Source of the DNA: Prochlorococcus sp. AG-363-A03
GTDB lineage: Bacteria; Cyanobacteriota; Cyanobacteriia; PCC-6307; Cyanobiaceae
Assembly (NCBI GenBank): GCA_003280445.1
Contig: QCEW01000015.1
Span: forward strand, 1 to 33,660
Direction of reading: 5' to 3'
Length of the DNA: 33,660 bases
This document shows positions 31,284 through 33,427 of this stretch, piece by piece. The notes beneath the pieces were generated by a model, which saw only the letters and a list, made by a program, of their open reading frames with translations, was not told the DNA's origin and searched no databases. Each line of letters opens with the position of its first letter. Position 1 is the stretch's first letter. The translations under genes and the position numbers were made by a program.

Positions 31284-31335
31284 TGGTGACGGGGGAAAGA
31301 TTTGAACTTGCGACCTTCGGGTTACCAGTCCGACG
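31284..31335 (-). pseudogene. Truncated 3' tRNA remnant (candidate att scar)
   Basis: On the minus strand these 52 bases contain an anticodon arm with GGT (Thr) in the loop CTGGTAA, a variable region, a T arm and an encoded CCA end. The D arm and the 5' acceptor strand are missing; the sequence changes to unrelated DNA at 31336. The T-arm and variable region (a 24-base stretch) are identical to the initiator tRNA 190 bases away, but the T stem and the A31-C39 pair are broken. This is what a decayed integration site at a tRNA gene looks like. The surrounding 367 bases (31157-31523) hold no gene. Confidence 0.75.
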
Positions 31336-31498
31336 TAGAAAAATGAAATCCCTTTGCCTATCTAAAGTTTGTAGCTTTTAACCTATTCCTGGGTAGAAAT
31401 TGGGTATTTTGAAAAATCCGATCAATCTATAGCTGGGATTTCCCTTCTTCTACTCTTTATTTAGGTCACTTCCTTAAATATAAAAAAATGTATTAAAA

Positions 31499-31514
31499 AA
31501 GCCCTTGAGGGCTT
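31499..31514 (-). terminator. Terminator after the initiator tRNA
   Basis: AAGCCC-TTGA-GGGCTT with six A on the left, so on the minus strand the stem is followed by TTTT and more T. It lies 10 bases after the tRNA CCA end. Confidence 0.8.
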
Positions 31515-31523
31515 GGTTTTAAT

Positions 31524-31600
31524 TGGTGGCGGGGGCAAGATTTGAACTTGCGACCTTCGGGTTATGAGCCCGACGAGCTACCAGACTGCTCTACCCCGCG
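31524..31600 (-). tRNA. Initiator tRNA-Met (CAT), copy 1
   Basis: 77 nt with all four arms and encoded CCA. The anticodon loop CTCATAA is held by TCGGG/CCCGA, containing the three consecutive G-C pairs typical of initiators. Position 1 is C and position 72 C, an unpaired 1-72 end that also marks initiators, and the D stem has A11-U24. The T stem is GCAAG/CTTGC. Confidence 0.94.
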
Positions 31601-31623
31601 GAGACTACCATTATATAAAATTA

Positions 31624-33312
31624 TTATACTTCTTTCCTTTTGGTTTTTGCGATACCCAGTTTCTCTATTAATGCCATTATCTCTTTTACCTTTGGCTTCT
31701 CGATCCCAAGCATCTCCAAGTCTTTAATTGAAATTGATTTATTAATTTTAATATGTTCTATAATTTTTCTTGTTTTATTAGTGGTTATAATTTCAATTAT
31801 GGATGAATGTATCGGATATAGTAGGAATTCAGCATTAATTGAATCATTATCTACAAAAAGTTTTTCTTCATTATAAGCTTCAGTTGAATATTCTTTAAAC
31901 ATGTAGTCAATAGAAGGATGAAAATATCCGAATTTATCTTTCCCCTCATAACTTTCCCTTATCTCTTTTAAGTCAGACCAAAGGTCACGATATTGTTTGC
32001 TTACAACTTTCCAATTAAATAATTTATTCCATCTTTGTTTACTTTTAGATCCCATATTCTCTCTAATCTCAGTGTTGTTTATCAGATGACTTAATTTGCT
32101 AATCAATGCATTTTCATCCAAAACTGTTTTCATTGATTTTAGCCCAATCATATAATCAAAGTTTATTTTATCGATTTTATAATCAATATCTACATTGTCT
32201 AATCCTTTATCAGAGTTGAAAGCAAATTTAGTGGGTATTAGATAGCCCGTTTCGTTATCTTTGACTAAGTCTTTATATCCATTCCAGTCACTAACAATTG
32301 TTGGAAGTTCGGCAGCCATCGCCTCAATAACTGTTAGGCCAAATGTTTCTTGAATATTATCTGATAAGGAGATAAATATATTGGCAGCATTAAGAGAATC
32401 AATCTTTGCCTGTTCTGATGCTTGATTAATGCCACCAACTCTTTTAACTGTTAGATTTTTAAATGAAACTATAATGTTATTGTAATACTCCTCAGTTAGT
32501 TTGTTTGCAAAAGTACCACACTCTAGCAAAATAATTTCTTTATTCTTTTGGTTAGTATTTATCTTTGACAATGCTTTATAGAGCGTTAGTGGATGTGACT
32601 TTGCGTGAAATGATAGACGCCCTAAATATAAAATAACTATTGCTTCTTCAGAAATACCTAGTTTCTTTCTTGACTTTAACCTTTTTTCTTTTCTAGTTAA
32701 AGACTTATTGTTAGTTATATCATTTACGGCAAGTGGTATTGTGTATAACTGAGGTAGTTTTTGCTTGCTAATATTTATATTGTATTTTCTTTCGAATGAT
32801 TCATGATAGAAATCTATCGTTCTTTTTACTACTTCTTTACCTGATGTTGAAGTGCATACTAATGCATCCCAGGATTCTAGTCCTCCAAAGATATAATCTT
32901 TAAATCCATCTATTACTGAGCTTGAACAAAGTGTGTGAATTATACCTGTGATTGAGAATCTGTTGGGTCTGAAATTTGCTCTTAGTGCCGACCATTTCTC
33001 AATGCATGGGTCAGGTATATGTATATTCTCTATTTCATGAAGATTTGATTTCTCTATACCAGTAAGTATATTTAATGAACTCTTATTAGGAAGATAGGGT
33101 AATAGTATTGTCTCTAAGTATTTTTTTTCATTATCTGACTTAACTATAATATTCAATTCTTCACCTTGATTTAAATTTTTAAGTATGCCTAAAGCAAATT
33201 CTTTTCCAGCTACTCTCCTTCCCATTAATTGAAACTTTTCTGTATTAATTGCGTCTCCTGGCAAGTATAATGTTGCTGGATATTTATTTAAGTTAGTAAT
33301 ACTATAAGCCAT
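31624..33312 (-). CDS. GT4-type glycosyltransferase with C-terminal extension
   Basis: 562 residues. The catalytic part is GT-B: VILYLGRLSFHAKSHPL (about 226-242) is the Gly-Arg-Lys phosphate and nucleotide region, and DNIQETFGLTVIEAMAAELP gives the E-x7-E pair Glu322 and Glu330, followed by PTIVSDWNGYKDLV. Such enzymes transfer sugars from nucleotide donors to lipid or polysaccharide acceptors. About 110 residues beyond the usual end (from about 450) are charged and close with a helical stretch ISIKDLEMLGIEKPKVKEI that looks like a small helix-turn-helix-like fold. It is bracketed by two initiator tRNA genes on the same strand, 23 and 38 bases away. Together with galE it suggests cell-surface glycan variation. 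The acceptor is unknown. Confidence 0.85.
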   Translation of the reverse strand: MAYSITNLNKYPATLYLPGDAINTEKFQLMGRRVAGKEFALGILKNLNQGEELNIIVKSDNEKKYLETILLPYLPNKSSLNILTGIEKSNLHEIENIHIPDPCIEKWSALRANFRPNRFSITGIIHTLCSSSVIDGFKDYIFGGLESWDALVCTSTSGKEVVKRTIDFYHESFERKYNINISKQKLPQLYTIPLAVNDITNNKSLTRKEKRLKSRKKLGISEEAIVILYLGRLSFHAKSHPLTLYKALSKINTNQKNKEIILLECGTFANKLTEEYYNNIIVSFKNLTVKRVGGINQASEQAKIDSLNAANIFISLSDNIQETFGLTVIEAMAAELPTIVSDWNGYKDLVKDNETGYLIPTKFAFNSDKGLDNVDIDYKIDKINFDYMIGLKSMKTVLDENALISKLSHLINNTEIRENMGSKSKQRWNKLFNWKVVSKQYRDLWSDLKEIRESYEGKDKFGYFHPSIDYMFKEYSTEAYNEEKLFVDNDSINAEFLLYPIHSSIIEIITTNKTRKIIEHIKINKSISIKDLEMLGIEKPKVKEIMALIEKLGIAKTKRKEV

Positions 33313-33350
33313 TCAATTGAATATAATAAATTATCCAATTAATGAATTTT

Positions 33351-33427
33351 TGGTGGCGGGGGGAAGATTTGAACTTCCGACCTTCGGGTTATGAGCCCGA
33401 CGAGCTACCAGACTGCTCTACCCCGCG
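33351..33427 (-). tRNA. Initiator tRNA-Met (CAT), copy 2
   Basis: 77 nt, identical to copy 1 except in the T stem, where GGAAG/CTTCC replaces GCAAG/CTTGC, a compensatory pair change that keeps the stem intact. Anticodon CAT, three G-C pairs in the anticodon stem, C1 facing C72 and encoded CCA all mark an initiator. It lies 52 bases after the stop of the asparaginase-like gene on the same strand. Confidence 0.94.

Follow-up and report, generated by a model that had tools for sequence, protein, structure and literature searches.

A glycosyltransferase gene between two complete initiator tRNA genes at an insertion hotspot of Prochlorococcus

How did an accessory gene come to lie between two complete copies of an initiator tRNA gene in a streamlined genome? 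This question is raised by the end of a contig of Prochlorococcus sp. AG-363-A03 (genome G000). The window, which is the whole stretch of DNA that was analysed, corresponds to this entire contig (C15:1-33660; 33,660 nucleotides) of an assembly that is 77% complete and consists of 64 contigs. ARAGORN revealed exactly two tRNAs in the window, both of which were tRNA-Met(CAT) on the minus strand (copy A, 33351-33427; copy B, 31524-31600), and both scored as intact tRNAs in Rfam (65.7 and 64.9 bits, respectively, against a gathering score of 29). The two copies differed at 2 of 77 positions, which form a compensated pair in the T-stem. A third match on the minus strand (31284-31335) corresponded to tRNA positions 26-77 with an identity of 88%. 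These three were the only matches to the initiator tRNA in the whole assembly, i.e. two full copies and one 3' fragment, and tRNA matches of any kind numbered 24. Thus, the central observation of a preliminary description made from the sequence alone, two nearly identical full-length initiator tRNA genes with a glycosyltransferase gene (GT) in between, all on the minus strand, was verified by ARAGORN, Rfam, open reading frame and Pfam analyses. The contig ends inside a conserved upstream gene, 233 bp past copy A, so the upstream neighbourhood could not be read in this genome. The features of the locus are as follows:

33483-33659, minus strand: 3' part of the conserved gene upstream (cluster c1), which is truncated where the contig ends (tblastn with a c1 protein, 90% identity over residues 262-320 of 320, E = 1e-36)
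33438-33445, minus strand: promoter-like motif TGTATGCT (motif TGTATnn(n)T) ahead of copy A, in the native leader
33351-33427, minus strand: initiator tRNA copy A, with native leader and 5' half, T-stem type A, without a terminator behind it
33313-33350, minus strand: 38-bp leader from copy A to GT, with an inverted repeat that is also present in genome G006 (folding and alignment)
31624-33312, minus strand: GT, 562 amino acids, intact, with a group-1 (family-4-like) domain (PF00534, Glycos_transf_1, E = 4.9e-21)
31601-31623, minus strand: 23-bp leader of copy B, insert-derived and unlike the native tRNA leader
31524-31600, minus strand: initiator tRNA copy B, complete, T-stem type B, with a terminator behind it
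31499-31514, minus strand: terminator-like site of the tRNA unit, now on the other side of the insert from copy A (folding energy of 31484-31523, -10.8 kcal/mol, z = -3.4)
31336-31523, minus strand: older short unit ("family 1"), from the tRNA 3' end to a tRNA-like fragment (alignments with G015 and G036)
31284-31335, minus strand: displaced tRNA 3' half closing the older unit, with the anticodon-stem site TCGGACT-GGT-AACCCGAAGG at 31314-31333
30110-31156, plus strand: galE-like epimerase gene on the far side of the hotspot, conserved in many relatives (PF16363, E = 1.2e-53)

The insert between the two tRNA copies (31601-33350, 1750 bp) contained GT as its single gene. Solved glycosyltransferases matched GT weakly in a PDB search, with a best E of 2e-5, and, judging from its family, the enzyme probably changes surface glycans. 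A homologous insert of 1753 bp was found in G006, which aligned end to end with the insert of G000, including the inverted repeat in the leader, and the two GT proteins showed an amino acid identity of 71%. The identities at codon positions 1, 2 and 3 were 80.1, 86.5 and 57.1%, respectively; since the first two positions were far better kept than the third, GT looks maintained by selection. At fourfold degenerate sites, the two genomes were 50% identical in GT and 51% identical in the neighbouring galE, which indicates that the insert is no recent arrival in both genomes. Such a host-level divergence fits an old module held in place as well as a mobile one. The 38-bp leader folded at -8.2 kcal/mol in G000 and -8.9 kcal/mol in G006, and its inverted repeat, which was kept in G006, may be a hairpin at the mRNA 5' end or a recombinase site.

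Relatives of GT at E <= 1e-20 were encoded in 55 of 300 genomes of the family, including the genome of the window. A scan of GT neighbours recovered 30 loci, consisting of the window's own and 29 others, and G006 alone among these 29 had a tRNA beside the gene within the flanks scanned (up to about 1.5 kb); a tmRNA was present at L111. A wider scan of genome contigs added 64 distant GT loci with identities of 26-36%. In viral contigs, no GT relative was found with a query of six GT peptides, which is blind to distant relatives. In the phage collection, 250 records matched, and the 20 listed covered 6-7% of the query, over its tRNA parts.

The sequences next to the two copies revealed how the insert lies with respect to the tRNA unit. 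Of the 87 full-length tRNA-fMet genes that were read, 81 had the TGTATnn(n)T motif within 30 bp, as did 30 of the 32 in the genus, where the two exceptions were copy B of G000 and copy B of G006. Conversely, three of these 32 genes had no terminator within 70 bp, namely copy A of G000, copy A of G006 and the gene of G012, and no minus-strand terminator-like site was found between copies A and B in the window. Copy A keeps the motif without a terminator and copy B keeps the terminator without the motif, which indicates that a native promoter-tRNA-terminator unit was split by the insert. A general promoter scan of 31100-33660 was uninformative, with 12 promoters found against 10.1 expected by shuffling. 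A TATAAT is located ahead of copy B in an AT-rich region of G000, so copy B may have a promoter of its own.

Comparison with other genomes showed what the same site looks like when it is not occupied by GT. A tRNA-fMet match was obtained in 30 of 41 genus genomes, and the 11 genomes without a match were mostly incomplete assemblies. In 17 of the 30, there was a single tRNA-fMet, and galE or c5, the next conserved gene, came 166-1143 bp after it without GT or sizeable cargo; galE was reached 166-627 bp after the tRNA in 12 genomes, and c5 was the next conserved gene, 609-1143 bp after the tRNA, in five. Cargo of 2.2-10.8 kb came first in five further genomes, and the boundary of the hotspot lay beyond the fetched stretch in the remaining eight. 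The gene order ahead of the tRNA was kept throughout the genus, where contigs reach, and in 14 loci of other genera c2, c3 and c1 preceded the tRNA in all 14 and c4 in 12. Fragments of the tRNA lay behind it in 10 of these 14 loci, where 10 of the 14 had been selected for having at least two matches. The locus is an insertion hotspot, and the 17 single-tRNA sites that share its flanks support the earlier proposal of an insertion at a tRNA gene. Two full tRNA-fMet copies were found only in G000 and G006 (n = 30), each around a homologous GT insert; thus, the arrangement is not conserved in all relatives, the pattern that the preliminary description had named as speaking against an insertion.

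Instead of a full tRNA, a tRNA fragment beginning with the anticodon loop marks the end of the cargo insertions at the tRNA-fMet of G004, G006, G015 and G025. Homologous, very large open reading frames (cluster c30, 1168 and 1290 amino acids) were part of the cargo in the G004 and G006 hotspot loci. Outside the genus, all 16 genomes with at least two tRNA matches and four single-match genomes were re-searched. Two full copies were found only in G264, and G165 contained a full match and a near-full one, each at a contig end. The copies of G264 (L119, 3757-3833 and 5168-5244, turned to the tRNA strand) appear to be a tandem duplication that includes the leader, with a 257-bp repeat at 96% identity. 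At L120 of G110 (3979-17554), five 3' fragments were spread over 13.5 kb behind a single full tRNA-fMet; these appear to be stacked insertions.

The T-stems of the window suggested which tRNA half is new. The T-stem of G000 reads TCGCAAG in copy B and in the displaced fragment, which has one further change at the T-stem partner base, and TCGGAAG in copy A. Because copy A differs in T-stem type from both copy B and the old fragment, the 3' half of copy A is likely the newcomer, an argument from sequence that is limited to G000, since both copies of G006 have one T-stem type. If the insertion brought this 3' half, the crossover would have occurred upstream of tRNA position 51. Type B was the sole T-stem type in 6 of 30 genomes, and G000 was placed outside the group of G002, G007 and G031, the type-B genomes in a weak tree; the type of copy B may therefore itself have been imported earlier. 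The tree was built from nine proteins of 22 genomes (31 were tried and nine were dropped for coverage), and it settles nothing on the date of the insertion because the support around G000 was weak (0.38).

In the preliminary description, the tRNA match at 31284-31335 was regarded as a decayed half left by the same insertion. It is indeed a 3' fragment, but one with GGT in place of CAT as its anticodon and with 16 of the 17 flanking site positions kept. The fragment does not belong to the trace of the GT insertion; it closes a separate older unit of about 190 bp that is common to G015 and G036. Among the matches listed, the older unit and the fragment together were 80% identical to G015 over 243 bp and 77% identical to G036 over 237 bp. 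Two readings of the fragment were rejected. It is not the far end of the GT insertion, as the unit is also found in G015 and G036, where GT is absent, and it is not a relic of a tRNA-Thr(GGT), as the loop might suggest, since the T-arm and acceptor are those of tRNA-fMet and the units of G015 and G036 read AGT.

Anticodon-stem sites were scanned in 87 stretches from 84 genomes, which yielded 44 plus-strand sites. Nineteen sites whose left arm was intact or nearly so lay 133-194 bp behind the 3' end of a tRNA or tRNA fragment; CAT was never found in them (0 of 19), and the anticodon positions were changed in 39 of 57 cases and the flanks in 30 of 323, the left arm being itself part of the definition of the site classes. 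When a degenerate left arm was combined with a tRNA tail, 9 of 11 sites read CAT. Three of these 11 (G023, G181 and G256) had CAT at a distance of 181-202 bp, so a scrambled anticodon cannot be predicted from nearness alone. The other 14 of the 44 sites fell outside both classes and were left out of the site statistics; six of them (four in G110, G025:7589 and G014b:5437) had CAT together with a left arm that was intact or nearly so, and none of the six is known to sit 120-210 bp behind a tRNA end. The p values for the sites (4e-6 and 7e-21) overstate the case, as sites within a unit family are related by descent. In these sequences, a scrambled anticodon with a kept stem behind tRNA-fMet is therefore a tendency with exceptions.

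Altered-anticodon sites about 130-195 bp behind tRNA-fMet were observed in G004, G006, G024, G025, G002, G007, G015, G036, G071, G159 and others, and those of G071 and G159 form inverted pairs. Some of the scrambled sites (G004, G006, G024 and G025) have no tRNA tail and are located ahead of the cargo; the site thus looks like part of the left end of an element. According to a published account (PMC8371274), tyrosine recombinases usually have their core site and overlap in the anticodon loop with its palindromic stem. If the overlap in such a core is wrong, a recombinase could bind there without exchange.

Matches to the recombinase family PF00589 were found in 37 of 41 genus genomes at E <= 0.001, a threshold at which a divergent recombinase could be missed. 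The sole match of G000 was located on contig C6, and the window contained none, in agreement with the preliminary description. In the 30 genomes, the contig stretches available on either side of tRNA-fMet, up to 100 kb, contained no PF00589 match (several of these contigs are shorter than 50 kb). We then fetched eight genus regions with strong integrase matches. In three of the eight, from G006, G036 and G014, the integrase was located between two complete tRNA-Tyr/tRNA-Thr(GGT) pairs (L174:1226-9571, L177:1983-10499 and L178:5174-9064). The first pair had the native leader, as in G000, and the second pair had a different leader that was alike in all three; the native terminator was behind the second pair in G036 and G014. 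Pfam was run on the element proteins of G006 and G036, and the integrase of L178 is a 240-residue open reading frame that is perhaps incomplete. The other five regions, at tRNA-Arg, tmRNA, tRNA-Ser or no tRNA, were without such a duplication, and in at least two of them (L175 and L176) the integrase was so close to the contig end that a second copy could go unseen. In G006, the sequence behind the second pair again resembled the start of the element, possibly in a tandem arrangement.

These integrase elements revealed that elements ending in complete tRNAs occur in the genus, and the GT insert shows the same plan, without an integrase. The three elements are similar to the GT locus in their two complete tRNA copies, native first leader and other second leader, but differ in their PF00589 integrase, larger cargo (3.6-8.2 kb between the copies) and target tRNAs. 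Of the classical integration trace proposed earlier, the insertion at a tRNA gene thus stands; the usual layout of one whole tRNA plus a fragment does not, since both copies are whole, as at the Tyr/Thr elements.

Our favoured reading, which we consider probable but far from certain, is that 31601-33350 is a small integrative cassette that lacks a recombinase, is mobilised in trans and is expressed from the tRNA promoter. It is suggested by the comparison with empty sites, the separation of motif and terminator, the differing 3' half, the non-native leader and the integrase precedent in the same genus. On the other side, an excised circular form of the cassette was not seen. A tyrosine recombinase supplied from elsewhere would have joined the cassette to the initiator tRNA gene by a crossover inside that gene, with the anticodon stem-loop as the probable site. 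The right end of the cassette would be a complete tRNA-fMet 5' half, so that integration would yield two whole tRNAs. Copy A would then consist of the host promoter, the host 5' half and the cassette 3' half, and copy B of the cassette leader, the cassette 5' half, the host 3' half and the host terminator. Since the cassette has no terminator, the promoter, tRNA copy A, GT, tRNA copy B and the terminator should form one transcript. The GT mRNA would be freed from it by tRNA processing, with RNase P acting before copy B and 3' maturation after copy A.

The same arrangement could have formed once long ago in the clade and been inherited, not mobile, with most lineages having lost it through recombination between the tRNAs. 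We consider this unlikely, while acknowledging that several observations agree with it: GT has diverged as galE has at fourfold sites, the direct 77-bp repeats would ease a clean loss that restores one tRNA, and G000 and G006 group with different single-tRNA genomes (G003, 0.38, and G019, 0.87, respectively), as repeated loss would give. However, G000 and G006 would have to be the survivors of many losses (2 of 30), and the copies of G000 differ in T-stem type, copy A also from the older fragment, which suggests that the 3' half arrived after the older unit. It is also rather improbable that a foreign tRNA-GT-tRNA segment was swapped in by homologous recombination through shared flanks, without site-specific recombination. 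Homologous flanks would suffice for such an exchange, the conserved upstream genes supply long homology and no recombinase is nearby, but the origin of the arrangement in the donor would still have to be explained, and such an exchange does not explain why tRNA fragments at this locus begin with the anticodon loop.

It is very improbable that the tRNA was simply duplicated in tandem and that GT was captured between the copies afterwards. An apparent tandem duplication is seen in G264, a member of another genus, in which both tRNA-fMet genes have matching native-type leaders; in G000 and G006, however, the native leader is absent from copy B, whose likeness to copy A ends at the tRNA 5' end. 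This leader comparison already largely refutes the explanation. Additionally, a comparison of both inserts with six single-copy loci revealed nothing in common beyond one 25-bp match (E = 0.001). The contig end close to copy A and the incomplete, fragmented assembly might suggest an assembly artefact, to which we give almost no credence: the same arrangement is present with a diverged GT in G006, a single contig, which refutes an artefactual origin of the arrangement itself, and the tRNA copies of G000 are not identical.

We compared the proposed integrative cassette with known systems. PMC10872708 gives tRNA-Met as one of seven tRNAs of Prochlorococcus tycheposons and their length as 4-200 kb. 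The GT insert resembles tycheposons in its tRNA-Met(CAT) border, picocyanobacterial host and accessory cargo but differs in its size of 1.75 kb, the absence of a tyrosine recombinase and the complete tRNAs at both ends. In its way of working, the insert would be similar to a tRNA-targeting cargo element, but because of its size and the missing recombinase, we do not classify it as a tycheposon. As described in PMC4383910, islands found with Islander regenerate the tRNA at one end and have a directly repeated tRNA sequence at the other, an anticodon-centred crossover is a standard class of tRNA-targeted islands, and islands normally leave one tRNA and one displaced fragment together with an integrase gene. 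The GT locus shares the same orientation and the direct tRNA repeat with these islands; in contrast, its far copy is a full tRNA and the expected integrase gene is absent from the insert. In E. coli, the metY-nusA operon joins an initiator tRNA with a protein gene, whose mRNA is made from the tRNA promoter. The GT locus would be similar in having an mRNA behind an initiator tRNA, if the two are co-transcribed, and differs in that GT is an accessory gene between two tRNA copies.

Three features set this locus apart: each side has a complete tRNA, the transcription unit is split, and a scrambled-anticodon site is present. We tentatively suggest, as a doubtful possibility, a twofold role for these features. 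In a tRNA-gene-tRNA cassette, an acquired gene may be driven by the initiator tRNA promoter and freed by tRNA maturation while tRNA function is kept; at the same time, the scrambled-anticodon site may serve as a landing or docking site for the recombinase that is incompatible with the tRNA itself, so that cargo could be swapped without touching the essential gene. The locus shows that a gene for a glycosyltransferase can be accommodated within an essential tRNA unit of a streamlined genome while the tRNA stays intact, and possibly with a promoter at hand. The insertion grammar of this hotspot also becomes explicit: the native leader comes first and is followed by the tRNA, the element, the displaced 3' half and a scrambled-anticodon site that recurs. 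This grammar yields testable predictions on recombinases that reuse an essential tRNA gene as a dock.
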